Below are positions 23,203 through 63,234 of a DNA stretch of 64,000 bases, piece by piece (the first letter of the stretch is position 1; the number at the start of each line of letters is the position of its first letter). A model generated the notes under the pieces. It did not search any database. It saw only the letters and a program-made list of their open reading frames with translations, and was not told the DNA's origin. This stretch comes from Rhodocyclaceae bacterium. GTDB lineage: Bacteria > Pseudomonadota > Gammaproteobacteria > Burkholderiales > Rhodocyclaceae. Made by a program: the position numbers and the translations under genes. Location of the stretch: positions 1 through 64,000 of the forward strand of contig JAGRFY010000041.1 of assembly GCA_020445765.1 (NCBI GenBank), given 5' to 3'.

Positions 23203-23277
23203 CTCTCCGTAGTTCAATGGATAGAACGAGCGCCTCCTAAGCGCTAGATGCAGGTTCGATTCCTGCCGGGGGGACCA
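23203..23277 (+). tRNA. tRNA-Arg (anticodon CCT)
   Basis: Folds as a full cloverleaf: acceptor CTCTCCG / CGGGGGG with two G-U pairs, D stem GTTC/GAAC, anticodon stem AGCGC/GCGCT with loop CTCCTAA (anticodon CCT), T stem GCAGG/CCTGC with loop TTCGATT, discriminator A and encoded CCA. It reads AGG codons. Its 3' end is the integration site of the element to the right. Confidence 0.95.
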
Positions 23278-23278
23278 A
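23255..23278. repeat. attL: attL: tRNA 3' end copy (intact)
   Basis: The T-loop to CCA part of tRNA-Arg, starting TTCGATTCCTGCC, then six G and ACCAA. It matches 33785-33807 except for one extra G here. With six G the tRNA acceptor stem is complete. Confidence 0.9.
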
Positions 23279-23321
23279 ACAGGGATCTGCAGGCCCTACA
23301 AACACTGCCCGGAATGACCTC

Positions 23322-23346
23322 AAAGCCCGCCAACTGCGGGCTTTTT
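23322..23346 (+). terminator. Rho-independent terminator after tRNA-Arg
   Basis: AAAGCCCGC / GCGGGCTTT stem with a 5-base loop (CAACT) and T-run. It lies inside the element's left end and would now terminate the tRNA transcript. Confidence 0.85.
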
Positions 23347-23377
23347 CGTTTCCCCCGTTGCCTCACTAGGTCGCATG

Positions 23378-23464
23378 GTGTACCGTCACATCGCACACAT
23401 TTTGACGGTACACGTGACGGTACACGGAGGCCCTAAAGCCCACCATCGGACCGTGTACCGTCAA
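23378..23464. repeat. Four copies of an 11-bp site upstream of the integrase gene
   Basis: GTGTACCGTCA occurs at 23378-23388 and 23454-23464, and as its complement TGACGGTACAC at 23404-23414 and 23416-23426. Related copies lie at the far end (33711-33733). Placement at both ends of the element suits integrase arm-type or excisionase binding sites; the cluster may also control int expression. Confidence 0.75.
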
Positions 23465-23477
23465 CCAAGGGCAAAAG

Positions 23478-24722
23478 ATGCTGAGCGACCCCGAATGCAG
23501 GCAGGTGCGCTTCGACGGCAAGGCGCGAAAGCTCGCCGATGAGAAGGGCTTGTACCTTCTGATTGCCGCGAACGGCTCGAAGTACTGGCGGATGGATTAC
23601 CGCTACCTCGGCCGCCGCAAGACCATCGCCTTCGGCACCTACCCCGAGACGGGCTTGAAGGATGCCCGGCGCAAGCGCGACGCTGCCCGGCGCATGCTCG
23701 ATGATGGCGTCGACCCCGGTGACGCTCGGCGCACCGAGAAGATCGCCCGGAAGATTGCGGCTGCGACATCGTTCGAGGCGGTTGCACGCGAGTGGCACGA
23801 GAAGAAGGCTCACGAGTGGGTGCCGAAGTACGCGGCAACGGTCCTCACTTCGATGGAGCAGGATCTCTTCCCGACGATCGGCCGCCGACCCATCGCCGAG
23901 ATCACAGCGTCAGAGATGCTTGCCGTGCTCAGGAAGGTCGAAGCGCGGGGCGCGCTCGAAACCCTCAAGCGCATTCGCCAGCGCGCCAACGACGTCTTCC
24001 TCTATGGCATCGCGACCGGGCGCGCCGAAAACAACCCGGTCAACGGGCTGCACAAGGCCCTGAAGAGCGCGCCAGCGAAACACCGCCCTGCCCTGCACCC
24101 GTCCGACCTGCGGGATTTCTTCCTTCGCCTGGACGTCGTGCGGGTGTCGCAGTTGGTCAAGTCAGCGATCAAGCTGCAGATTCTCACCTTCCTCCGACCG
24201 GGCGAGCTGCGGGGCGCCCGATGGTGCGAGATCGATCTGGACAGCGCGACATGGATCGTCCCCGGCGAGCGTGACCGCAGCCGCGGCCTGACAGGCATGA
24301 AGATGGGCGAATCGCACGTCGTCCCACTATCCAGCCAAGCGGTCGACTTGCTGCGGGAGCTGCACAAGCTCACCGGTAGGCGGGATCTCGTGTTTCCGAA
24401 CCGAAACGACCTGACGCGCCCGATATCGGACGGCACCGTGAACAGCGCCCTTCGCGCGATGGGGTATGCCCCCAACGAAGCGACCGGTCACGGGTTCCGG
24501 TCGACGGCAACCGGCGCGCTGCTTGAGATGGGCTACCGGCCCGAAGTGATCGATCGCCAGTTGGCCCACCGTGAGCGAAAGCAGGTTTTCGGCGCGTACA
24601 GCCATCAGGCCGAGTACATGGCCGAGCGGCGCAAGATGATGCAGCAATGGGCAGACCACCTTGACGCGGTTAGAACCGGCGCGACGGTGATCCCGTTCAG
24701 GCAGGGCGGCACTGCTGCCTGA
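23478..24722 (+). CDS. int: P4-type tyrosine site-specific integrase
   Basis: A 414-residue integrase with the DUF4102-like arm-binding N-terminus (residues 8-90), a SAM-like core-binding domain (95-195) and a catalytic domain with R240 (LRPGELR), H338-x2-R341 (HGFR), H364 (LAHRE) and nucleophile Y374 (GAYSH). The ending AEYMAERRKMMQQWADHL is typical of tRNA-targeting P4 integrases. It is oriented away from the tRNA, with the arm-site cluster immediately upstream, and should catalyse both integration and, with an excisionase, excision. Confidence 0.95.
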   Translation: MLSDPECRQVRFDGKARKLADEKGLYLLIAANGSKYWRMDYRYLGRRKTIAFGTYPETGLKDARRKRDAARRMLDDGVDPGDARRTEKIARKIAAATSFEAVAREWHEKKAHEWVPKYAATVLTSMEQDLFPTIGRRPIAEITASEMLAVLRKVEARGALETLKRIRQRANDVFLYGIATGRAENNPVNGLHKALKSAPAKHRPALHPSDLRDFFLRLDVVRVSQLVKSAIKLQILTFLRPGELRGARWCEIDLDSATWIVPGERDRSRGLTGMKMGESHVVPLSSQAVDLLRELHKLTGRRDLVFPNRNDLTRPISDGTVNSALRAMGYAPNEATGHGFRSTATGALLEMGYRPEVIDRQLAHRERKQVFGAYSHQAEYMAERRKMMQQWADHLDAVRTGATVIPFRQGGTAA

Positions 24723-24833
24723 CCGCAAATTGAGAGATGCGTGAGGGCGTGGGGTAATACACCACACCGGGAAGCCTCGCAGCGCAACCGCGCCGGCCGG
24801 ATGCCGGTCAATCGACGAAGTGGAGATTCACAA

Positions 24834-25043
24834 ATGGCAACCACCAACATCCAACAAGCCGAAGCATCGGGCGCGGCGGCACTATTCGACATCTGCCCCG
24901 CCGATTTCAAGCTGCTCAACGAAAGACTTCATCGGCTTGCCGAGATCGCGGCAGAAGCCGGGACGGGTGACGCCGCAGACTGGACACCGGTCTACCAACT
25001 GATCGATGAAGTCCACGGGATGGTCGCCGAAGTCGCGAGCTGA
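24834..25043 (+). CDS. Small unrecognised acidic protein
   Basis: A 69-residue acidic, largely helical protein (FKLLNERLHRLAEIAAEAG) with no domain I recognise. ATG 24834 has GGAG upstream; the frame could extend to 24741 but without support. It is followed directly by a terminator, so it is either monocistronic or ends a short int transcript. Similar small genes next to integrases in islands are usually uncharacterised. Confidence 0.55.
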   Translation: MATTNIQQAEASGAAALFDICPADFKLLNERLHRLAEIAAEAGTGDAADWTPVYQLIDEVHGMVAEVAS

Positions 25044-25069
25044 GCGGCTGACGCAATTCATTGACCTCG

Positions 25070-25090
25070 AACCGCCGAAAGGCGGTTTTT
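25070..25090 (+). terminator. Rho-independent terminator
   Basis: AACCGCC / GGCGGTT stem with GAAA tetraloop and T-run, separating the integrase/small gene transcript from downstream genes. Confidence 0.88.
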
Positions 25091-25139
25091 GCCTTCTTTG
25101 GCAAATGCAGACCAATCAACCCCAACGGACGCAGCAGAG

Positions 25140-25592
25140 ATGATTTCCCGAGAGCTAAACTTGCTTTTCAGTCACTTCGAATCAGATCACTACGCTGCCG
25201 ACGATCGAACCCCGTCACAGAAACGTGAATTGCGCGGCATCGCAGAGCACTACTTGAAACTCATCGCAAGCGGTGACGAAGGCTACGAAGCGAGATTCTT
25301 CGCGCAGGAACTAGCAAAAGTAATTTTGCGCGTAGGCTCGGCCAGAACGAGGGGGGCACGGGCACACGCGCTACTTCGCGCGGTTGGGCTCTCAGGGCAC
25401 CATCCGACTGACCGAGACCGCCTCGCGTACGAGGTCGAGATGGCCAGTGTTTTCGAAATTCCTGAAGACCAAGTCATCGAAGAAGCGAAAACGTACCTGG
25501 ATACCGAAACGTACGTCCCCAACGAAGGAAAGTCGACAATCGCGAAGGCGAGTCTTAAGCGCGCAATTCGCAGGCGCAGCAAGCGCCCATAA
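25140..25592 (+). CDS. Unrecognised island protein
   Basis: A 150-residue basic-ended protein (the last residues are RRRSKRP) with a helical N-terminal half and FEIPEDQVIEEAKTYLDTE near the middle. I recognise no family. The start is uncertain: a TTG at 25089 would add 17 residues but overlaps the terminator just upstream. It precedes the palindrome and the AlpA-like gene, and its job in the element is unknown. Confidence 0.5.
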   Translation: MISRELNLLFSHFESDHYAADDRTPSQKRELRGIAEHYLKLIASGDEGYEARFFAQELAKVILRVGSARTRGARAHALLRAVGLSGHHPTDRDRLAYEVEMASVFEIPEDQVIEEAKTYLDTETYVPNEGKSTIAKASLKRAIRRRSKRP

Positions 25593-25619
25593 CTACTGTT
25601 TTCAAGTTTGTGACTGACG

Positions 25620-25641
25620 GACAACTGTATAGACAGTTGTC
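25620..25641. promoter_or_regulatory. 22-bp near-palindrome, candidate operator
   Basis: GACAACTGT and ACAGTTGTC are 9-bp inverted arms separated by four bases (ATAG); TATAGA sits at the centre. It lies 75 bases upstream of the AlpA-like gene and has no T-run, so a repressor operator is more likely than a terminator. The CTGTATAGACAG core recalls GntR/HutC-type operators, but no such regulator is in the element. Confidence 0.55.
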
Positions 25642-25715
25642 ACTTTGGCGTGGCAATCCAAACCTGATGATTCGCGGCGATACGCCTCGATGCGGATTTT
25701 CTGGAGCCCTACGCC

Positions 25716-25928
25716 ATGCAGAAATTCATTCCTGCAGTCAAAGAAGCACCCCTATTCCACAGAATTAACCCAACACTCGCGCGTCTTGGCATTTCACGCG
25801 CCATGTTCTACAGGCTGGTCAAGGCTGGCGAGATCGAACTCGTCAAGCTCGGCCCTAGCGCGAGCGGTATTCCGCATCACTCCCTCGTCAGCTTCTGCAA
25901 AGCACGCGGAGTGGAGATCGAGGGATGA
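25716..25928 (+). CDS. AlpA/excisionase-like helix-turn-helix protein
   Basis: A 70-residue protein with an N-terminal extension and a compact winged helix-turn-helix (LARLGISRAMFYRLVKAGEIE ... VSFCKARGVEIEG), the plan of AlpA, Xis and Torf-type DNA-binding proteins. In P4-like elements such proteins turn on the integrase or direct excision. It overlaps the next gene by 4 bases (ATGA). Binding at the 22-bp palindrome or the GTGTACCGTCA sites is plausible but untested. Confidence 0.72.
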   Translation: MQKFIPAVKEAPLFHRINPTLARLGISRAMFYRLVKAGEIELVKLGPSASGIPHHSLVSFCKARGVEIEG

Positions 25929-26197
25929 TCCACTACACCAGCAACATCCGCCCCGTTCTGCCAAGTGAGCGAGATCGGGTGAAGTTCAAACTGTTTTCGG
26001 TCTTCCCGGATCTCTCAGTCTGTACGGTCGCCGAATTCATCCGCCACCGGTCGGGCAGGAGCGAAGGCGAGATGGTGGAGGTTGTTGCCGCCATCGGACT
26101 CGCCGCGGCAGGACAGCTCATCGAAATCGACCGGAGTGTATTTCTCCGACCCGCGGGCAATGGGCTGGTTACGCTCATCACGAGACATCGGCCATGA
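25925..26197 (+). CDS. Unrecognised 90-residue island protein
   Basis: It overlaps the AlpA-like gene by 4 bases at its start and the primase gene by 4 bases at its end, so the three appear translationally coupled. It has no recognised domain; the segment LSVCTVAEFIRHRSGRSEGEMVEVVAA could be a small helix-turn-helix. A role with replication is suggested only by position. Confidence 0.55.
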   Translation: MIHYTSNIRPVLPSERDRVKFKLFSVFPDLSVCTVAEFIRHRSGRSEGEMVEVVAAIGLAAAGQLIEIDRSVFLRPAGNGLVTLITRHRP

Positions 26198-28305
26198 GCA
26201 ACCGCAATACTGACGACGCGGACGACCTGAAGTCCGACCACGATCGCGAGCCATCTTCAGCGACCGTCCTGCAACCGCCTCTGCTTGCCGCGCTCGCCTA
26301 CGGGCGGGCCGGATTTCCCGTCTTTCCGCTAATTCCAAACGCGAAAACGCCGGCAATTTCGGAATGGCAGAAGAGGGCTAGCGCCGACGAGGACGAGATT
26401 CGACAACTCTTCAAGGATCGGCCGAACGCAAATATCGCCATTCACTGCGGCGAGTCCCGACTTGCCGTGATTGACGTAGATCCTCGCAATGGTGGCCTGA
26501 AAACCCTCGAAAAATTGCAGCGGAAGAATGGCTACCTATGGGACTACGACCCGGCGACTGCCCGCACTGGCGGCGGAGGAAATCACTACGTATTCCGTGC
26601 TCCGCGGAAGGGGCGCTTGCCCTCCAGTCTCGGAACGGGTGTGGACCTGCTGTGGGGCAATCATTACTTCGTCGTCTCGCCCTCGATTCATCCGAACGGC
26701 AAGTGCTACGAATGGGAAGAAGGCGCGGACCCTCGCACGCTGGGGGAGATTCCCGAATTGCCGCCCGAGTGGTGCATACCGCTCGACTCGGGGGCTTCCG
26801 ACCCCCTGCCACTGTCCCCGCAAGGACTCGACGTCATGGCCCAGGATGGCGACCTGTCGCGTCTTGCGGATACACCCGACGAAGAGGCGCGTCTTCGGTC
26901 GGCGTTGGAGCACATCTCGGCGGACTGCCCCTATGCGGAATGGCGGGATGTCGTCTTCGGCATTCAGGCGTCCGGACTGAGCAACGCCGAGACAATTGCC
27001 CGTGAATGGTCCGAGTCGGTGCCTGAGAGGTACGACGAAAGGGACTTTGACCGGCTGGTGCGCAGCTTCCGCGAAGATCGACGGAACGGCGGCAAACTGA
27101 TCGGCGTCGGAACAGTTTTCCATCGTGCGAAGGGGAACGGTTGGGTCGACCCCCGAATGCCAATCGACCTATGGGATTCTCCCATCGATCTTGAGAGCGC
27201 ACTGAGGGACGGCCCGAAGCCGATCGCGTGGGCTGTCGAGGATAGGATTCAACGCGGCAGAGCCATCCTTCTTAGCGGGCTTGGCGGGACATCAAAAACG
27301 CGGCTTCTCTATCACCTCGCAATTGGATTCGCGGTTGGAAGGCTTCCTTGGAACTGGCAGATCACCGCGACCGGAAAATCCGTCCTCGTGCTCACGGAAG
27401 ATTCTGCCGAAGATGTAGCTCGCACGATGTGGGGCATGTTTGAGTGCATCGGCCTTGACGCCGACGAGCGTGCCCGTGTCGTGGAAAGCCTGGCCGTTTT
27501 TCCGCTTGCTGGGCGCGATTCACGCCTCCTGAGCTTCAAGTCTCTCCGCGAATTGGTAACGAACTCGAACTTCGCGTCCCTCAAGAAGAAGATTCGTCAA
27601 CTGGGCGATGTCGTTTTCGTCGGCCTAGACCCCGCACTGAGTTTGACCCCCGGCGATGAGAACGACCAAGGGCACCAGCGAGCCCTTGGGAAGATGGCGG
27701 ACGATCTGGCTATCCATACGGGCGCTGCGGTTTGCCTTGTCGCTCATGCAGCCAAGGGCAGCCTGCAAAAGGACGAACTGGAATCACACAACTCGCGCGG
27801 CGGCGGCGCGATCACCGATGCTGTTCGAGGGGAATTCTCCTTGCGCGGCATGACCGCTAAAGAAGCCCGTAGCTTTGGCATCGCCGACATGGAGGAGCGC
27901 AAGCGCCTAGTTCAGTTGGTGGCAACGAAGGGCAACCATCTGCCCCCGCTCGCATTCGTGTCGATATGGCTTCGTCGCGAAGAAGGGGGCGTACTGACCG
28001 CCGCCAACATCGCACCAAGTTCGAACAACGAACGCCAAATTACGCAGACCGAAATGCGTGCCTACGAAATTCTTGTCGACCTATCCCGTACCTGCCCTCC
28101 CAAAATCGGCGAATGGCGGAAGGAGTGTATTGCACGAGGGGTGATTGCGAAGGGTACGCAGGGCGCCGAGGAAAAGGCGATGCAACGGATTGTCGACCAT
28201 CTGATGGAAGGCTGGTTTGTTGTTCGAGGGGAGGGGCGCGGTGTTTATCTCCCCCTCGATCCAGACACCGGCTTACAGCTTCCAGACGGACAGACACCCA
28301 CATAG
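26194..28305 (+). CDS. Bifunctional primase-polymerase / RepA-like helicase
   Basis: A 703-residue replication protein. Residues 25-200 are a prim-pol domain with D94-x-D96 (VIDVDPRNGG) and H131 in TGGGGNHYVF. Residues 225-300 resemble a primase C-terminal helical domain. Residues 340-560 are a RecA/RepA-like ATPase with Walker A GLGGTSKT (362-369) and Walker B VVFVGLDPAL, followed by CLVAHAAKG. Such proteins (P4 alpha and relatives) prime and unwind the element's own origin. The stop codon lies inside the inverted repeat of the putative origin. Confidence 0.88.
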   Translation: MSNRNTDDADDLKSDHDREPSSATVLQPPLLAALAYGRAGFPVFPLIPNAKTPAISEWQKRASADEDEIRQLFKDRPNANIAIHCGESRLAVIDVDPRNGGLKTLEKLQRKNGYLWDYDPATARTGGGGNHYVFRAPRKGRLPSSLGTGVDLLWGNHYFVVSPSIHPNGKCYEWEEGADPRTLGEIPELPPEWCIPLDSGASDPLPLSPQGLDVMAQDGDLSRLADTPDEEARLRSALEHISADCPYAEWRDVVFGIQASGLSNAETIAREWSESVPERYDERDFDRLVRSFREDRRNGGKLIGVGTVFHRAKGNGWVDPRMPIDLWDSPIDLESALRDGPKPIAWAVEDRIQRGRAILLSGLGGTSKTRLLYHLAIGFAVGRLPWNWQITATGKSVLVLTEDSAEDVARTMWGMFECIGLDADERARVVESLAVFPLAGRDSRLLSFKSLRELVTNSNFASLKKKIRQLGDVVFVGLDPALSLTPGDENDQGHQRALGKMADDLAIHTGAAVCLVAHAAKGSLQKDELESHNSRGGGAITDAVRGEFSLRGMTAKEARSFGIADMEERKRLVQLVATKGNHLPPLAFVSIWLRREEGGVLTAANIAPSSNNERQITQTEMRAYEILVDLSRTCPPKIGEWRKECIARGVIAKGTQGAEEKAMQRIVDHLMEGWFVVRGEGRGVYLPLDPDTGLQLPDGQTPT

Positions 28306-28520
28306 GGTGGGTGTCCTGTCTGTCTGGAAGAAAGCTGTCCGGAATGTCCGTGAAATGTCCGGAATTTGTCCGTCTGATGTCCGTTGCGCAAATGTGCCCC
28401 GAATTCGTACTCGAAGAGCGGAACGAACCTTCCCGCAAGGCAATGGGTGAATTGATGGGGCATGTAACCCCCTTCGAACAGAGCATCAGCTTGTTCACTA
28501 CATAAGCAATTACTAATAAA
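28275..28520. other. Putative replication origin of the element (inverted repeat, iterons, AT-rich)
   Basis: This covers most of the 399-base interval between primase and the next gene. A long imperfect inverted repeat (arms 28275-28300 and 28308-28338) spans the primase stop. It is followed by five direct copies of TGTCCG at 28336, 28345, 28356, 28367 and 28378 (spacing 9, 11, 11, 11), about one helical turn apart, and then an AT-rich stretch (28490-28520). Hairpin plus iterons plus AT-rich DNA beside a primase/helicase gene is the layout of a replication origin. The remaining interval to 28704 shows no gene. Confidence 0.72.
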
Positions 28521-28704
28521 CGGTGCCATGAGCAGATCCGCAAATTCTTTTGCATCGGGGCTCGGCGCACCCCCGACGAACCGAAACACCCCAGGAGGGA
28601 CCCATCGGACACACCTATGCAATGTGACATCGCAGTCGACGAAGCAGAACGAGCGAATCAATCAATGCCGGCAACACGCAACACATCACCGGAGTAACCC
28701 GAAC

Positions 28705-29748
28705 ATGGGAAAGATGAGCAAGGCCGAAATGGCAAAAGTCAGGTACGAAGAAAATCTGGCCAAGATCGAAGCAACCAAGGCGTCAATGAGGGAGCTGCGA
28801 TCAAAATTCGATGAGGAGAGCGCCAAGAAGGCACGCAAGGACAAGGAATGCTGGGACGTACTGGAGCCCCTCGACGAAAAGCTGCGCCAGGGTCGTGAAC
28901 TGACCGAATCGGAGCGAACAACGCGACGTGAGCTGATGGCGCAACTGTCTCGGATTCAATCCGAGTGGAGCAAATGGGAATGGGACCACGCCGACATCAA
29001 GCGAGGCCGGCAGGAGAACCTGAACCAACTGGAGGCCCGCACGAGGGTGTTAGCGTTGGCAGCGAAGACCGACACCGAAATGCATGAGGCGATCGAGCGC
29101 GCGCGAAAGAGTGTCATCTGGCAACGCGACAGTCTCGCCCACAGCTACGAAATCATCGAAGCGATCAAGGCAAAGCTCGCGGAGGCCCACGAGATGGATG
29201 CCGCGCAGGCGAACCTTGAAGCGATGATCGCCACGGCACGCAAAGAATGCGAGGACTTGAAGGCCAACGCATTCATCCAGGGCACCCAGCCTGATCCGAA
29301 GAGGCTCCCGATCGCCCAAAAGGAACTTGCCGCGCTCGAAGCGGAACTTGCCCGAGGGATTGGAGATGGTGCTCGCGCGGCGATCCCGAAGCTTGAAGCC
29401 CAACTTGCGGATTCCGAAGGGAGCATCGAAGCGGAGAAGGCGAAGATCGAATCAGCCAAGGATGACCTCCTACGGCTGCATCGAAACCAAGCCATCCGGG
29501 AGCTAGAGGACAGGGTCGACGCCCTCTGCGACCCCCTGCTGACTCTGGCAGCGACAGACCGCACGTTCGAATACGTCATCCATGACGCGCTCTGGAATCG
29601 CGGGCTGCGCATCCTGGACATCAACCAGAAGCTCTGGAAACCGGGATGGCTGATGCACCCCCGCGAACGGTCCGCGGATGAAGAGGAAGCCATCGCGGAA
29701 CGGCGTCGGCAGATTCTCGACGTCGACGGCGACGCCAACGAACTGTGA
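28705..29748 (+). CDS. Coiled-coil protein of unknown function
   Basis: A 347-residue highly charged protein, with heptad-like Leu/Ala spacing over most of residues 1-290, so long coiled coils are predicted. There is no signal peptide or known catalytic motif. The start at 28705 (GGAG upstream) was preferred over one 59 codons earlier. The C-terminal part (residues 275-345) is less coiled and contains WKPGWLMHPRERS. It lies between the putative origin and the restriction enzyme gene; structural or replication-linked roles are both possible. Confidence 0.6.
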   Translation: MGKMSKAEMAKVRYEENLAKIEATKASMRELRSKFDEESAKKARKDKECWDVLEPLDEKLRQGRELTESERTTRRELMAQLSRIQSEWSKWEWDHADIKRGRQENLNQLEARTRVLALAAKTDTEMHEAIERARKSVIWQRDSLAHSYEIIEAIKAKLAEAHEMDAAQANLEAMIATARKECEDLKANAFIQGTQPDPKRLPIAQKELAALEAELARGIGDGARAAIPKLEAQLADSEGSIEAEKAKIESAKDDLLRLHRNQAIRELEDRVDALCDPLLTLAATDRTFEYVIHDALWNRGLRILDINQKLWKPGWLMHPRERSADEEEAIAERRRQILDVDGDANEL

Positions 29749-29759
29749 TCTATCCCAAT

Positions 29760-29840
29760 TTCGGCCCCTCCCGCCCCCTCGCACAGATCGCGGGGCACAC
29801 CACCCCATCGGCCCTTCGGTCGTGGGTGGGAGGGGCCGAA
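29760..29840. repeat. 13-bp inverted repeat between two island genes
   Basis: TTCGGCCCCTCCC (29760-29772) and GGGAGGGGCCGAA (29828-29840) are exact inverted copies with 55 bases between. If transcribed they could pair to form an attenuator or stability element ahead of the next gene. No T-run follows. Confidence 0.55.
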
Positions 29841-29861
29841 TTCAACACGGAATCCACCGCA

Positions 29862-30218
29862 ATGCGCCCATCCCGCACCCCCTCGATCCTCGAACAACTC
29901 GAAGCCTGTCGTGCCGCGCCCGTTCGGACGGTAAGCGACGGTCCACTCCGATCAACTGCCGACAGGATTTCGGACTTGGCGCGCTCAATGGGCATCACGG
30001 CGCGCCGTCTTGAATCGTTCGCCGCCAAGGGCGCAGTTCGCGTCTACCTGAGTGACGGACTCGGGGCAAGAATCTTGCTCGGCCGCGAGGATTGCCCGCA
30101 AGCCGTCAAGCGGCGACCATCACCACGCCGAACCAGCGTCGCCCAGCTCGGCAAAATTCACGGAAGCTATCCCGCAAGCATCGTGAAGGCGCCCCAGCGC
30201 GCTACCATCTCACCCTGA
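29862..30218 (+). CDS. Small basic island protein, helix-turn-helix-like
   Basis: A 118-residue basic protein; the segment ADRISDLARSMGITARRLESFAAKGAVRVYL could form a helix-turn-helix. A GTG at 29745 overlapping the preceding stop would give 157 residues, but that extension crosses the 13-bp inverted repeat and looks non-coding. It ends 24 bases before the restriction-methylation gene and could be its regulator, as controller proteins often precede restriction enzymes (inference). Confidence 0.45.
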   Translation: MRPSRTPSILEQLEACRAAPVRTVSDGPLRSTADRISDLARSMGITARRLESFAAKGAVRVYLSDGLGARILLGREDCPQAVKRRPSPRRTSVAQLGKIHGSYPASIVKAPQRATISP

Positions 30219-30242
30219 GAACAAGACCAATCAGGGGAGCAC

Positions 30243-33200
30243 GTGCCCGGTCCAGACGTCGACGCATTCATTGCCCGCTGGCGCGCTGCGACCGGAAGCG
30301 AGCGCGCCAACTATCAACTGTTCCTTGCCGAACTGTGCGTGCTGCTCGACCTGCCTGCGCCGGAACCGGCCAGCAACGACACGCGGGATAACGCCTACGT
30401 GTTCGAGCGTCGGGTTGTCATCAGGCAGCCGGACGGCTCGGAAAGCCACGGATTCATTGACCTGTACCGGCGAGGCGCCTTCGTTTGCGAGGCGAAGCAA
30501 ACGGGAAAGGCGCTGGATTCGTCCGGCTGGGACAAGGCGATGATGCGTGCCCACAATCAGGCGGACCAATACGCGCGCGCCCTACCCGCGGAAGAAGGAC
30601 GGCCGCCGTTCATTGTGGTTACGGACGTCGGGCGGAGCCTGGAACTGTACGCGGAGTTCAGCCGGTCCGGTGCGACGTATACGCCCTACCCCGATCCGCG
30701 TAGCCACCGCGTCCGCCTGGAGGATCTGCACCGCGAAGATGTGCAGGAGCGCATTCGTGCCGTATGGCTGGACCCGATGTCGCTCGATCCGGCGCGGCGC
30801 TCTGCCCGAGTCACGCGAGAGATCGCGGACCAACTTGCACGCCTCGCACGCTCCCTGGAGGCTGCCGGGCATGGAGCCCAAACGGTTGCCGGCTTCCTGA
30901 TGCGGGCGCTGTTCACGATGTTCGCCGAGGACGTCGGACTGCTTCCGGCGCGGAGCTTCACGAACCTGCTGACAGAACTTGCGGGCACGCCGCAGACCTT
31001 CGCCCCGATGCTCGAAAGTCTGTGGCAGACGATGAATTCGGGGGGATTCTCGCCCGCGCTGCGTTCTGACGTCCTTCGCTTCAACGGTGGGCTTTTCTCG
31101 GAAGCGACCGCACTCCCCCTCGATCGGGATCAATTGGCGCTCCTGTTGAGAGCATCCGAGGCGGATTGGCGCTACGTCGAGCCGGCAATCTTCGGCACCT
31201 TACTGGAGCGCGCCCTGGACCCGAGGGAACGCCACAAGCTCGGGGCTCACTACACGCCCCGCGCCTACGTCGAGCGTTTGGTACTTCCCACGGTGATCGA
31301 GCCACTGCGGGGCGAGTGGAGGGAAGTACAGGCCGCCGCACTCGCATATGAGCAGCAGGGTAAGCACAAGGAGGCCGTTCGAGAGATCCAGGCATTCCAC
31401 CGCCACCTCTGCGAAGTCCGCGTGCTCGATCCCGCGTGCGGCAGCGGAAACTTCCTTTACGTCACGCTGGAGCACATGAAGCGGCTCGAAGGGGAAGTGT
31501 TGAACCTGTTGCACGACCTAGGGGAATCACAAGGACTGCTCCAGCTTGAAGGCATCACCGTCGACCCGCATCAATTCCTCGGGCTGGAGATCAATCCGCG
31601 AGCCGCTCGAATTGCCGAGATGGTTCTATGGATTGGCTACCTCCAGTGGCACTTCCGGACGCATGGTTCAGTGACACCACCGCAACCGGTGCTGCGCGAC
31701 TTCCGAAACATCGAGAACCGGGACGCGCTCATCGATTACGACAGCGAGGAATACCTTACCGATGATGCCGGTCGCCCGATCACGCGATGGGACGGCATCA
31801 CCACGAAGCCGAGCCCGATCACTGGCGAGGCAATCCCCGATGAGGCGGCGCAGGTCGTCCAAATGCGATATGTGAACCCGCGCAAGGCGGAATGGCCGCG
31901 TGCCAATTACGTCGTGGGCAATCCGCCCTTCATCGGCAACAAGCGGATGCGCATGGCGCTAGGCGACGGGTACGTTGAAGCGGTCCGCGCCACTTGGCCC
32001 GAAGTGCCTGAGACCTCCGATTTCGTCATGTACTGGTGGGACAAGGCAGCGGAACTCGTGCGGGCCAATCAGCTTGTCCGATTCGGCTTCATCACGACAA
32101 ACAGTCTCAAACAGGTCTTCAATCGGAAGGTTCTAGAACGCCACCTGTCCGCAAAGCACCCGGCCTCCCTGCTCTTCGCAGTACCCGATCACCCGTGGGT
32201 CGATTCTTCGGATGGGGCAGATGTGCGGATTGCAATGACCGTCGCAGGCAGCGCAGGACAGGTCGGAACGCTTGCCATCGTGCTAAAGGAAGAAGTCAAA
32301 GGCGACAGCGAAGTCGACGTCACCCTTGCGATGCGTACCGGGGAGATTCACGCCGATCTCACAGTCGGAACCGGGGTAAGTCGCTCTAGGCCCCTCCGTT
32401 CGAACGGAAGCATCTGCTTCCAGGGCATGAACCTCGTTGGGAAGGGCTTTCGGCTGGCCGAAGACGACGTCCGCGATCTCGGGTATGACATTCACCGTTT
32501 GCCAGACGCGATCAAGCGGCACTTCAACGCACGCGACTTGATGCAGCTCGGCGAACCCTGTTGGGTGATCGACCTATTCGGTCTGACGGCCGAGGAAGCA
32601 CGCAACCGCCACCCTGCGCTCTATAACTGGCTCATGACACGCGTAAAGCCCGAGCGGGATCACAACAACCGCGCCGCATACCGGACCAAGTGGTGGCAAT
32701 TCGGGGAAGCACGCGGAGGGCTACGCGCTGCGTGGTCAGGTCTCAACCGCATCATTCTTACACCCGAGACGGCAAAGCACAGAGTCTTCGCCTTCGAAGC
32801 GTTGCCATTCTGTCCGGATCACAAGTTGTACGCGATCACGCTACCTGATGCGTTTGCGCTCGGTCTCCTTTCAAGCCGCATAAATGCAGCGTGGTCCTTG
32901 GCGGCAGGCGGCCGGATGGGAGTGGGTAACGACCCCGTCTTCAACAATACTCGATGCTTTCTGACCTTCCCTTTCCCGATCGCGACGCCGGAGCAGCAAA
33001 CGCGTATTCGCGACATCAGCGAACGGCTCGACGCACACAGGAAGCGCCAACAAGCACTTCACGACGGGCTGACACTGACCGGCATGTACAACGTCCTCGA
33101 AAAGTTGCGTTGCGGTGACGTTCTGACCGCGAAGGAACGAGTGATTCATGAAGAAGGACTCGTGTCCGTCTTGCGCGAGTTGCATGACGCACTAGACGTC

Positions 33201-33689
33201 ACCGTGTTCGACGCCTACGGATGGTCCGACTTGGGCAAGATCCTCGTTGGGCGACCCGGCGCAACGACTCCGGTCGCGAACAAGCCGGCAGAGCAGTCGG
33301 ACGCCGAAGAAGAACTGCTTCGACGGCTGGCATCGCTGAACGCCGAGCGCGTCACTGAAGAAGCTCGCGGCCTAGTGCGCTGGCTTCGGCCCGAATTTCA
33401 GAATCCTGCCGGTACAGCATCGGCAGCCGGCAAGACCAGCAATCAAGCCGAACTCGACGTCGAGCCGACAATCGCACCCACCCCATCGAGCAAGCGGGTT
33501 TGGCCCAAGCAGATGCGCGAGCAGGTTGCCGCGGTCAAGGGGGCACTGGCAACCGGGGCGCAATCTGTCGACTCGCTGGCGAGTCAATTCAAGCGGAAGC
33601 CGGCCGCCGCGGTTTCAGCCGTGCTTGGGGCGCTGCAGGAGTTGGGCATGGTCGAAGCCGAGGGCGATTTGTACCGTCTTGCCCCCTGA
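30243..33689 (+). CDS. MmeI-like type IIL restriction-modification enzyme
   Basis: A 1148-residue single-chain enzyme. The N-terminus has a PD-(D/E)xK-type nuclease site, D73-x9-E83-A-K85 (GFIDLYRRGAFVCEAK), followed by a helical spacer. The amino-methyltransferase has motif I LDPACGSGNF (395-404) and motif IV NPPF (560-563), indicating N6-adenine methylation. Residues about 700-930 should hold the target recognition domain. A C-terminal winged-helix-like tail (1085-1148) is extra. GTG 30243 has GGGGAGC upstream. MmeI relatives cut about 20 bases from their site and need no separate methylase, so this is a compact defence module. Confidence 0.88.
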   Translation: MPGPDVDAFIARWRAATGSERANYQLFLAELCVLLDLPAPEPASNDTRDNAYVFERRVVIRQPDGSESHGFIDLYRRGAFVCEAKQTGKALDSSGWDKAMMRAHNQADQYARALPAEEGRPPFIVVTDVGRSLELYAEFSRSGATYTPYPDPRSHRVRLEDLHREDVQERIRAVWLDPMSLDPARRSARVTREIADQLARLARSLEAAGHGAQTVAGFLMRALFTMFAEDVGLLPARSFTNLLTELAGTPQTFAPMLESLWQTMNSGGFSPALRSDVLRFNGGLFSEATALPLDRDQLALLLRASEADWRYVEPAIFGTLLERALDPRERHKLGAHYTPRAYVERLVLPTVIEPLRGEWREVQAAALAYEQQGKHKEAVREIQAFHRHLCEVRVLDPACGSGNFLYVTLEHMKRLEGEVLNLLHDLGESQGLLQLEGITVDPHQFLGLEINPRAARIAEMVLWIGYLQWHFRTHGSVTPPQPVLRDFRNIENRDALIDYDSEEYLTDDAGRPITRWDGITTKPSPITGEAIPDEAAQVVQMRYVNPRKAEWPRANYVVGNPPFIGNKRMRMALGDGYVEAVRATWPEVPETSDFVMYWWDKAAELVRANQLVRFGFITTNSLKQVFNRKVLERHLSAKHPASLLFAVPDHPWVDSSDGADVRIAMTVAGSAGQVGTLAIVLKEEVKGDSEVDVTLAMRTGEIHADLTVGTGVSRSRPLRSNGSICFQGMNLVGKGFRLAEDDVRDLGYDIHRLPDAIKRHFNARDLMQLGEPCWVIDLFGLTAEEARNRHPALYNWLMTRVKPERDHNNRAAYRTKWWQFGEARGGLRAAWSGLNRIILTPETAKHRVFAFEALPFCPDHKLYAITLPDAFALGLLSSRINAAWSLAAGGRMGVGNDPVFNNTRCFLTFPFPIATPEQQTRIRDISERLDAHRKRQQALHDGLTLTGMYNVLEKLRCGDVLTAKERVIHEEGLVSVLRELHDALDVTVFDAYGWSDLGKILVGRPGATTPVANKPAEQSDAEEELLRRLASLNAERVTEEARGLVRWLRPEFQNPAGTASAAGKTSNQAELDVEPTIAPTPSSKRVWPKQMREQVAAVKGALATGAQSVDSLASQFKRKPAAAVSAVLGALQELGMVEAEGDLYRLAP

Positions 33690-33710
33690 GTGGCGGCAAG
33701 GGCCTGAAGT

Positions 33711-33733
33711 TGACGGTACAAATGGCGGTACAC
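33711..33733. repeat. Right-end copies of the 11-bp site
   Basis: TGACGGTACA at 33711-33720 and TGGCGGTACAC at 33723-33733 match the cluster beside the integrase gene, one with a single mismatch. They lie 50-75 bases inside attR and may be right-arm integrase sites. Confidence 0.65.
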
Positions 33734-33784
33734 GCCCGCACCGCTCATGGAAAATCATTGGCAGGAGCGGGACAAAGTGAGTTT

Positions 33785-33807
33785 TTCGATTCCTGCCGGG
33801 GGACCAA
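33785..33807. repeat. attR: attR: duplicated tRNA 3' end
   Basis: Repeats the T-loop to CCA part of tRNA-Arg and then AA, but with five G where attL has six. It marks the right end of the element. No tRNA 5' part is present here. Confidence 0.9.
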
Positions 33808-62785: not shown

Positions 62786-62831
62786 GCGGGGCCGCGCGGC
62801 CGATTCGACCGCCGTCGAAGGCCGAAGGCAC

Positions 62832-62860
62832 TTGAGATGCCGAGCCCTCGCCCCCATAAT
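62832..62860 (+). promoter_or_regulatory. Promoter of permuted ssrA
   Basis: TTGAGA (62832-62837), 17-base spacer, CATAAT (62855-62860). The start would fall near 62867, immediately before the tmRNA acceptor piece. Confidence 0.75.
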
Positions 62861-62866
62861 CGAAGC

Positions 62867-63117
62867 ATGGTTGTAATTCCGGCGAGCCGGAGACGTTCTG
62901 GACAGGGGTTCGACTCCCCTCACCTCCACCCAAGCGCATCGCAAGGTGTCTTTGGGTGGGGGTGTACCGGTTTCGACAGGGCGGGCGAACGCAAGCAGGC
63001 AACCCGAAAGGCGACGGACGTAATCCGCGCAAATCCATAAACGCCAACGATGAGCGTTTCGCACTGGCCGCTTAAGGTCGGAGCCGGGGCCGCTGAAGCC
63101 TTGTAACCCAAGACAGC
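62867..63117 (+). ncRNA. ssrA: Circularly permuted two-piece tmRNA
   Basis: The acceptor piece comes first (about 62867-62930): T arm CAGGGG-TTCGACT-CCCCT, acceptor strand CACCTCC, discriminator A; CCA is not encoded in place. A 27-base intervening segment follows (62931-62957), with ACCCAA/TTGGGT extending the acceptor helix. The coding piece begins at GGGGGTG (62958), which pairs with CACCTCC (one G-U), then the tRNA-like GGTTTCGACAG, and a reading frame giving the degradation tag ANDERFALAA before TAA (63072-63074 region). The 3' boundary is approximate. Two-piece tmRNA is known in alpha- and some betaproteobacteria. Confidence 0.9.
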
Positions 63118-63141
63118 CGGTGGGGGCCTCGGCCCCCACCG
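63118..63141 (+). terminator. Hairpin ending the ssrA gene
   Basis: CGGTGGGGGC / GCCCCCACCG 10-bp stem with CTCG loop. There is no T-run, so it may mark RNA processing rather than pure intrinsic termination. Confidence 0.65.
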
Positions 63142-63234
63142 TCACGTTCGAGGGCCACCGGACGAATCCATTTGTCCGAATGCTTCCCCACTGGTCATAA
63201 TGCTTCGCGCCCGGCACCTTGCCGGCCAGCGTCC

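Follow-up and report, generated by a model that had tools for sequence, protein, structure and literature searches.

It is not settled what the minimum size of a phage satellite is, nor by which routes satellites acquire or shed packaging genes. In the Gram-negative phage-inducible chromosomal islands (PICIs), genes are transcribed in one direction and an iteron origin lies immediately 3' of the replication gene (PMC6092414). The phage-inducible chromosomal minimalist island PICMI115 carries an integrase gene, alpA, a primase gene, and three unknown genes and travels, as a concatemer, inside helper particles of full size (PMC10803314); since this six-gene satellite spreads without capsid genes, an int/alpA/primase-type gene set can suffice. 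Islands with int and AlpA, with restriction-modification, and without transfer genes have also been reported, one of which is moved by jumbo phages (PMC12595487). Here, we describe a mobile element of ~10.5 kb in a 64,000-nucleotide stretch (the window) at the start of contig JAGRFY010000041.1 of a Rhodocyclaceae bacterium (GCA_020445765.1). The element occupies positions 23278 to 33806, is bounded on the left by a tRNA-Arg(CCT) gene and on the right by a second copy of the 3' end of that gene, and is probably a compact, site-specific, self-replicating, phage-satellite-like island in the style of the Gram-negative PICIs and the PICMIs.

The integration target is the tRNA-Arg(CCT) gene at 23203 to 23277 on the forward strand (Rfam tRNA model, 64.1 bits), whose 3' end forms attL. 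An exact 18-nucleotide (nt) direct repeat of the 3' part of the tRNA is found at 23255 to 23272 and at 33785 to 33802, and both copies run on to ACCA: the attL core (23255 to 23277, forward strand) reads TTCGATTCCTGCC followed by six G's and ACCA, and the attR core (33785 to 33806, forward strand) reads TTCGATTCCTGCC followed by five G's and ACCA. When we compared the locus with those of five other genus members (G001 to G005), the two flanks were directly contiguous in G002, i.e., the site is empty. In G001, downstream similarity (from 34779) restarts 967 nt past the tRNA, relative to 973 nt in the window; this spacing also fits an empty site, though the intervening stretch did not align. The tRNA is present in G004, where the match is limited to the upstream flank; the G003 contig is short; and in G005, similarity breaks off at 23216, short of the 3' end of the tRNA. 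The element proteins had no match in the five fetched sibling loci (E ≤ 1e-3), and none of the five genomes had an integrase match at E ≤ 1e-110. The 18-nt repeat and the two apparently empty sibling sites bear out the original prediction of a compact tRNA-Arg element between copies of the tRNA 3' end, and they indicate that its gene set is not fixed at this place in close relatives. The insert thus has the two hallmarks of integrative tRNA elements, namely, flanking repeats of the tRNA 3' end and an empty site in relatives, and its integration is well supported. The element has a GC content of 60.6%, relative to 65.6% in the rest of the window, and all of its genes are transcribed rightward, in one direction from int. 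About nine genes had been proposed; based on codon-position GC and family matches, eight are convincing and one (29862) is doubtful.

The repeats also bear on the place of strand exchange. Both the unoccupied tRNA copies (in G001, G002, and G004) and attL have six G's before ACCA, and attR has five. Because a crossover to the left of the G run would leave six chromosomal G's in attR, attP presumably carries five G's, and we infer that strands are exchanged at the extreme 3' end of the tRNA, in GGGGGACCA or later. The one-G deficit was found in four of the six elements in which attR could be placed (the window element and those of G008, G963, and G036), with G811 and G965 having different acceptor sequences. 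The G963 and G036 assignments are less certain, as their best ungapped matches were just 17/26; in G963, a second site tied at 17, and the choice was made by the CCTGTCGGGGGACCA stretch. Given that attR also lacks one G in three other elements with a similar tRNA G run, the deficit is probably a feature of attP rather than a sign of decay, and the one-G difference would mark the excised circle in a way that is easily read from sequence.

The P4-type tyrosine integrase (414 amino acids [aa]; 23478 to 24722, forward strand), assigned by family matches, is preceded by four exact copies of TGTACCGTCA, two per strand, within 85 bp (23379 to 23463). At the opposite end, three further copies fall within the terminal 140 bp (33670 to 33732), an exact one at 33711 and two with one mismatch each at 33670 and 33723. 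With up to one mismatch, the motif occurs at 10 sites in 64 kb, compared with 1.5 expected; the element contains 8 of these sites, with 7 at its two ends. The copies are most simply interpreted as integrase arm-type sites. In 219 genomes of the bacterial family, 10 matched the integrase at E ≤ 1e-110, our own included, and the nine others were 49 to 72% identical. In seven of the nine genomes, a complete tRNA-Arg(CCT) immediately precedes the integrase gene; one integrase gene (G943) adjoins a 3' half of this tRNA, and the 16 kb examined around the last (G035, L028) yielded no tRNA. Since seven of nine adjoin the complete tRNA, tRNA-Arg(CCT) is a hotspot of this integrase group; related elements are present at other tRNA-Arg genes, as the original prediction of a mobile element required. 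The eight other loci, which were fetched and two of which are shorter than 4 kb, had no homologue of the window prim-pol, coiled-coil, 25089/25140, or MmeI protein (E ≤ 0.01), and the integrase belongs to a tRNA-Arg(CCT)-specific group that carries other cargo elsewhere. The G008 relative encodes a tail tape measure protein (E = 1.7e-127), AlpA (PF05930), and a Toprim primase plus DUF927 protein. We also observed that the G008 element (L094, G008:C34, 622 to 14290) is ~13.6 kb long, lies at tRNA-Arg(CCT), and has an integrase of the same group, and that an insert in G811 (L097, G811:C1, 595 to 2990) is a minimal ~2.3 kb, with the integrase and one 92-aa open reading frame (ORF), which looks RelE-like by eye, between att repeats. 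Among viral contigs, 11 loci encode integrases 35 to 45% identical to that of the window.

The 703-aa replication protein (26194 to 28305, forward strand) consists of a Prim-Pol domain, PriCT-2, a RepA-type helicase, and a C-terminal segment. Its family matches were to Prim-Pol, PriCT_2, and AAA_25; in the PDB, the N-terminal half, with the Prim-Pol domain, matched pRN1 ORF904 (1rni, E = 0.003), and the helicase half matched RSF1010 RepA (1g8y, E = 6e-14). The C-terminal segment (residues about 607 to 690) is common to two of three helicase relatives by tblastn. The gene end overlaps a hairpin (28279 to 28330) that folds more stably than 200 of 200 shuffled sequences on either strand (z = -7.0; other strand, -7.7) and that we presume could serve as a primase site, by analogy with the single-strand initiation (ssi) site of IncQ (RSF1010). 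Directly beyond it, five iteron-like TGTCCG repeats start at 28336, 28345, 28356, 28367, and 28378 on the forward strand (28336 to 28383), at steps of 9, 11, 11, and 11 bp. Five copies were reached in 0 of 200 shuffles, and this array is the sole place in the window with three copies of a 6-mer at 10- to 12-bp steps. The 40-nt segment with the highest AT content in the element (67.5%; 28485 to 28524), a possible melting site, lies ~100 bp beyond the array, and a single inverted CGGACA is present at 28606. This origin-like array is located where the original prediction had supposed an origin, and its predicted layout, with iterons immediately 3' of the replication gene, is that of a PICI-type origin. 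Replication of its own thus appears to be well supported by the anatomy of the element.

Close relatives of this replicon proved to be few. When the prim-pol alone was used for peptide-pattern scans, neither genome contigs nor viral contigs gave a match; of 399 genomes of the order, 19 matched the prim-pol at E ≤ 1e-15, our own included, and the only close match among them (48%) was on a contig of a Thiobacillus metagenome-assembled genome (MAG) (G202). Alignment queries with the helicase half identified two loci in genome contigs, the Thiobacillus contig and L053 from a Desulfovibrionales MAG, and one IMG/VR contig (L069); an earlier viral-contig scan with this half gave no match, and a three-row profile run against 398 genomes of the phylum recovered our own genome and three weaker matches. 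In a helicase tree of 18 rows (19 were sought; L067 gave no match), the helicases of the window, of a Thiobacillus relative (L027), of L053, and of L069 formed a clade with support of 100/99, apart from IncQ RepA; three long branches in other parts of the tree are uncertain, and the weaker relatives L077 to L079 were included as rows and otherwise judged by eye. As a separate observation, L067, the 22.7-kb circular plasmid p1 of Shewanella sp. KX20019, encodes a Prim-Pol protein and has two tape-measure C-terminal domain annotations.

In all four clade elements, repeats are found where the helicase gene ends or just beyond. In L027, these are five TGACCC repeats, together with a perfect 19-bp inverted repeat; L069 has nine AGTACC repeats, with three of eight steps being 11 bp, at the corresponding place; and L053 has CGGGACA repeats (three inside the gene end and one past it) plus a hairpin. 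Hairpin z scores were -7.0 for the window, -6.2 for L053, -3.9 for L027, and -1.2 for L069. Under a strict rule of three repeats in a row, the L027 repeats are missed and only places away from the gene's end are flagged in L053. The primase parts differ between the elements: Prim-Pol and PriCT-2 in the window, none fused in L027, PriCT-2 and Toprim in L053, and a segment with PHROG DNA-primase matches in L069.

The same elements also differ in their phage genes. L027, which is flanked by a repeat of at least 30 nt of tRNA-Arg(ACG), encodes a tail tape measure protein (phrog_13338, 6e-57), a TerS-like match (4e-6), and a collagen-like protein with tail-fiber matches. L069 (IMGVR_UViG_3300038974_000388; 15,204 bp, with a 55-bp terminal repeat) encodes, among ten ORFs scanned, a major capsid protein (1e-79), portal, TerL, head morphogenesis, and head-tail adaptor proteins, with no tail family among the same ten; it also has an integrase/invertase-type recombinase, ParA, the primase-helicase, and phased AGTACCTTCAG repeats. 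L053 is located at tRNA-Arg(TCG), whose 3' end is nearly repeated ~7.2 kb away. Since satellites with tape measure genes are already in print (PMC12987554), relatives of this kind are not new as such. We propose, as an idea that could equally well hold or fail, that the four belong to a satellite lineage not yet described, whose hallmark is a cassette of helicase and origin (an IncQ-RepA-type helicase gene with phased repeats and, in most cases, a hairpin after it), with swappable primase parts (Prim-Pol, Toprim, a further primase, or no fused primase) and only distantly related integrases that aim three of the four members at different tRNA-Arg genes (CCT, ACG, and TCG), the members being minimal, tape-measure, or capsid-coding elements. 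If so, the gain or loss of packaging genes could be followed around one replicon, as four elements running from no recognized phage genes to a head module form a natural series for such questions. The expectation that the same int/AlpA/prim-pol/coiled-coil order would recur with different cargo did not hold: the coiled-coil gene was found in no relative, and the pairing of integrase module and replicon module varies between elements.

The last gene of the element encodes a full-length, 1148-aa MmeI-like (type IIG/IIL) restriction-methylation enzyme (30243 to 33689, forward strand). A type IIG model matched residues 5 to 1142 with 1515 bits; MmeI_N, MmeI_hel, and MmeI_Mtase scored over their cutoffs, and MmeI_TRD, at 24.4 bits, scored under its 27-bit cutoff. 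The protein has the nuclease, helical spacer, methylase, and target recognition parts of a single-chain MmeI-type enzyme and carries the motifs D-X9-E-A-K at 73, DPACGSGN at 396, and NPPF at 560, which we take to have nuclease or methylase roles. Relatives were found in 17 of 300 genomes of the order at E ≤ 1e-60, our own included, and in 65 plasmid records at E ≤ 1e-30 (best, 68.5%), and the gene looks like ordinary, exchangeable defense cargo. Its position on a replicating vehicle would link restriction cargo to phage parasitism.

The phage genes of several of its nearest relatives suggest that the element travels by hitchhiking in virus particles. The integrase would exchange strands at the 3' end of tRNA-Arg(CCT) (GGGGGACCA) while binding the TGTACCGTCA arm sites at either end of the element. 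Excision would be triggered by the AlpA/Xis-like protein. For replication, the iterons immediately 3' of the prim-pol gene would be bound by the product of this gene, the Prim-Pol/RepA-helicase fusion, which would melt the AT-rich DNA nearby, load the helicase, and start synthesis from a primer, made perhaps on the hairpin, to give circles or concatemers. A helper phage would package these products, most simply without capsid remodeling as in the PICMIs, and the MmeI-type enzyme would restrict other phages and so pay for its carriage. The sequence itself shows the integration, the identity of the modules, the origin-like array, and the relatives with phage structural genes; from these, we infer excision, replication, helper packaging, and restriction activity, the packaging because relatives of two different modules carry phage structural genes. 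Of the two lifestyles originally put forward, satellite or mobilizable island, the satellite is favored by the helicase relatives L027 and L069 and the integrase relative G008, whereas the "mobilizable" label has no positive support, since no relaxase was found.

Several observations weigh against this interpretation. Pfam/PHROG-type family scans recognized no packaging, capsid-redirecting, or transfer gene among the nine ORFs, and specifically no relaxase, mobilization, portal, capsid, tail, or terminase family; the absence of packaging and transfer genes had been predicted, as had the integrase, prim-pol/helicase, and MmeI-like families confirmed above. No cos or pac site was found in the element. 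Because the helicase relatives and the integrase relatives are different elements, the kinship is modular, and satellite life is deduced from the parts. Neither the coiled-coil protein nor the 25140 protein has a convincing relative. A search of the first 2.5 kb of the eight loci of integrase relatives did not turn up the exact TGTACCGTCA motif, which is therefore not common to the integrase group. The AlpA/Xis-like label of the 70-aa helix-turn-helix (HTH) protein (25716 to 25928, forward strand) is weak: its HTH and excisionase matches (HTH_17, E = 0.006; TIGR01764 "excise," E = 0.001) are both below the cutoff, and Phage_AlpA (PF05930) did not appear in the family scan of the element ORFs. 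In the proposed lineage, the L069 fold was equaled by 26 of 200 shuffles, and the 6-mer count of the strictly intergenic stretch of L053 was reached by 199 of 200 shuffles (with the gene end included, by 1 of 200 for the 6-mer and 0 of 200 for the 7-mer); no phage structural gene was recognized among the L053 ORFs scanned. Finally, a prophage region in the same genome (contig C40) shares no exact stretch longer than 16 nt with the element, and host controls share 16 to 17 nt; since this is nothing above chance, no helper is proposed. A long stretch common to the element and this prophage was considered as a packaging site, looked for, and not found. The region itself (G000:C40, 50.3 to 64 kb; L100 and L101) is a possible prophage with TerL and portal matches, and integrase-, protease-, and tape-measure-like ORFs were noted there by eye.

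Three other explanations were considered. A self-replicating island could be mobilized by a conjugative element through an origin of transfer (oriT) in cis, with IncQ-like replication ensuring survival after transfer. The match of the helicase half to RSF1010 RepA fits this proposal, as do the plasmid matches, most of the 20 listed being RepA helicases and the three examined being IncQ1 mobilizable plasmids, and the lack of a capsid gene in the element. However, the nine ORFs include no relaxase or mobilization family, the helicase clade is apart from IncQ RepA, and phage head or tail genes are present in two of the three remaining clade members, so we regard conjugative mobilization as unlikely. 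Also improbable, to a similar extent, is that the element is an integrating, replicating defense island carried passively by large phages in generalized transduction. The AlpA/intY islands at tmRNA in Pseudomonas provide a precedent (PMC12595487), but those islands are 23 to 55 kb long and section 5 of that report mentions no replication module; the dedicated replicon of the window element and its relatives with packaging genes point to a more specific relation to phages. A decaying, immobile remnant of a larger satellite or prophage that has lost its phage genes might be suspected from the attR that is one G shorter than attL, the two proteins without convincing relatives, and the minimal gene content, yet this is very unlikely given that the main ORFs are of full length, both ends have arm-type sites, the MmeI-like enzyme has its motifs, and three other elements (two with uncertain attR assignments) lack the same G.

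The remaining genes of the satellite-like island are small or orphan. Codon-position GC is gene-like for the ORFs at 24834, 25140, 25716, 25925, and 28705. The first, of 69 aa (24834 to 25043), has no family match. The second (25140 to 25592; 150 aa, possible start at 25089) is predicted with low confidence to be helical (AlphaFold mean predicted local distance difference test [pLDDT] score, 62) and had no match in plasmids, phages, or viral contigs. The start of a 90-aa protein (25925 to 26197) overlaps the end of the 25716 gene, and its stop overlaps the prim-pol start. The 347-aa orphan (28705 to 29748) is an all-helical coiled-coil protein; an upstream start at 28528 was set aside because codon-position GC of the extension is not gene-like. 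Against 399 genomes of the order, it matched its own gene and two others at 30 to 33% identity (E of about 6e-4), which we read as coiled-coil noise; it had no match in plasmids or phages, none by peptide pattern in viral contigs, and none at E ≤ 0.001 in a viral fold search. The doubtful 118-aa ORF (29862 to 30218), whose codon-position GC is not clearly gene-like, had no plasmid match. All of these ORFs are on the forward strand. The coiled-coil or 29745/29862 ORF was considered as part of the MmeI system and rejected, as no homologue was found at 11 MmeI-relative loci (L055 to L065; ~1.5-kb flanks, some cut; E ≤ 0.1); two of these loci (L059 and L061) had weak int and alpA matches (E = 0.017 and 0.025), and no such neighbor is named in two annotated plasmid contexts. 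A 17-nt inverted repeat (29760 to 29840; 94% complementary, arms 47 nt apart) opens the stretch between the coiled-coil and MmeI genes, with ORF 29862 just after it. Just inside the element after the tRNA, a terminator-like hairpin of 9 pairs with a T run is found at 23322 to 23344 on the forward strand. Since such matches are not enriched in the element over shuffles (9 seen versus 11.2 expected), it is its position that argues for a terminator. T-run hairpins were also seen by eye after the tRNA in integrase relatives, as if the element restored termination of tRNA transcription. Elsewhere in the window, 62818 to 63166 is an ordinary permuted betaproteobacterial tmRNA with the tag ANDERFALAA; this tmRNA and the Thiobacillus MAG of the same order point to a host in the Burkholderiales as defined by GTDB.

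Among described systems, the Gram-negative PICIs, such as EcCICFT073, share with the window element an int gene at the left end, one gene direction, accessory genes, a Pri-Rep protein, and an iteron origin directly 3' of its gene with an AT-rich stretch (PMC6092414); their AlpA-type regulator would have a counterpart in the weakly assigned AlpA/Xis-like protein. In contrast to them, the window element has no recognized capsid-morphogenesis or terS gene, targets a tRNA, and has an IncQ-RepA-type helicase and a hairpin in its putative origin. The PICI origin is reported to have two iteron sets flanking an AT-rich region (PMC6092414), whereas the window has one set of five, then the AT-richest stretch at 28485, and then the single inverted copy at 28606. 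The PICMIs of Vibrionaceae are likewise minimal, with int, alpA, a primase gene, and unknown genes; they do not remodel capsids, and they protect from other phages (PMC10803314). The likeness is one of architecture; the window element lies at tRNA-Arg(CCT) rather than beside fis, is 10.5 kb rather than 6.1 kb long, and has other hosts. P4-like satellites share the P4-type integrase and, with a putative AlpA in the window, the int-AlpA-primase/helicase logic, but psu, sid, delta, epsilon, and P4-type alpha (components listed in PMC8628076) were not recognized among the nine ORFs in a scan of Pfam/PHROG families that included no Sid-specific profile. The IntY/AlpA tmRNA islands moved by jumbo phages resemble the element in their integrase and, if the weak label holds, AlpA, and in their flanking repeats, restriction cargo, and lack of transfer genes (PMC12595487), and the window element differs from them in its target gene, size, and dedicated replicon. 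IncQ (RSF1010) replicons similarly combine a RepA-type helicase, iterons, and a hairpin, whereas in the window, Prim-Pol is fused to the helicase, no RepC was recognized, the helicase falls in a separate clade, and the element is integrated in the chromosome. Lastly, although the window element has no recognized capsid, portal, or terminase genes of its own, as capsid-forming PICIs (cfPICIs) and other capsid-coding satellites do, it has its helicase-origin module in common with L069, which carries head and packaging genes and, we presume, resembles the cfPICIs.

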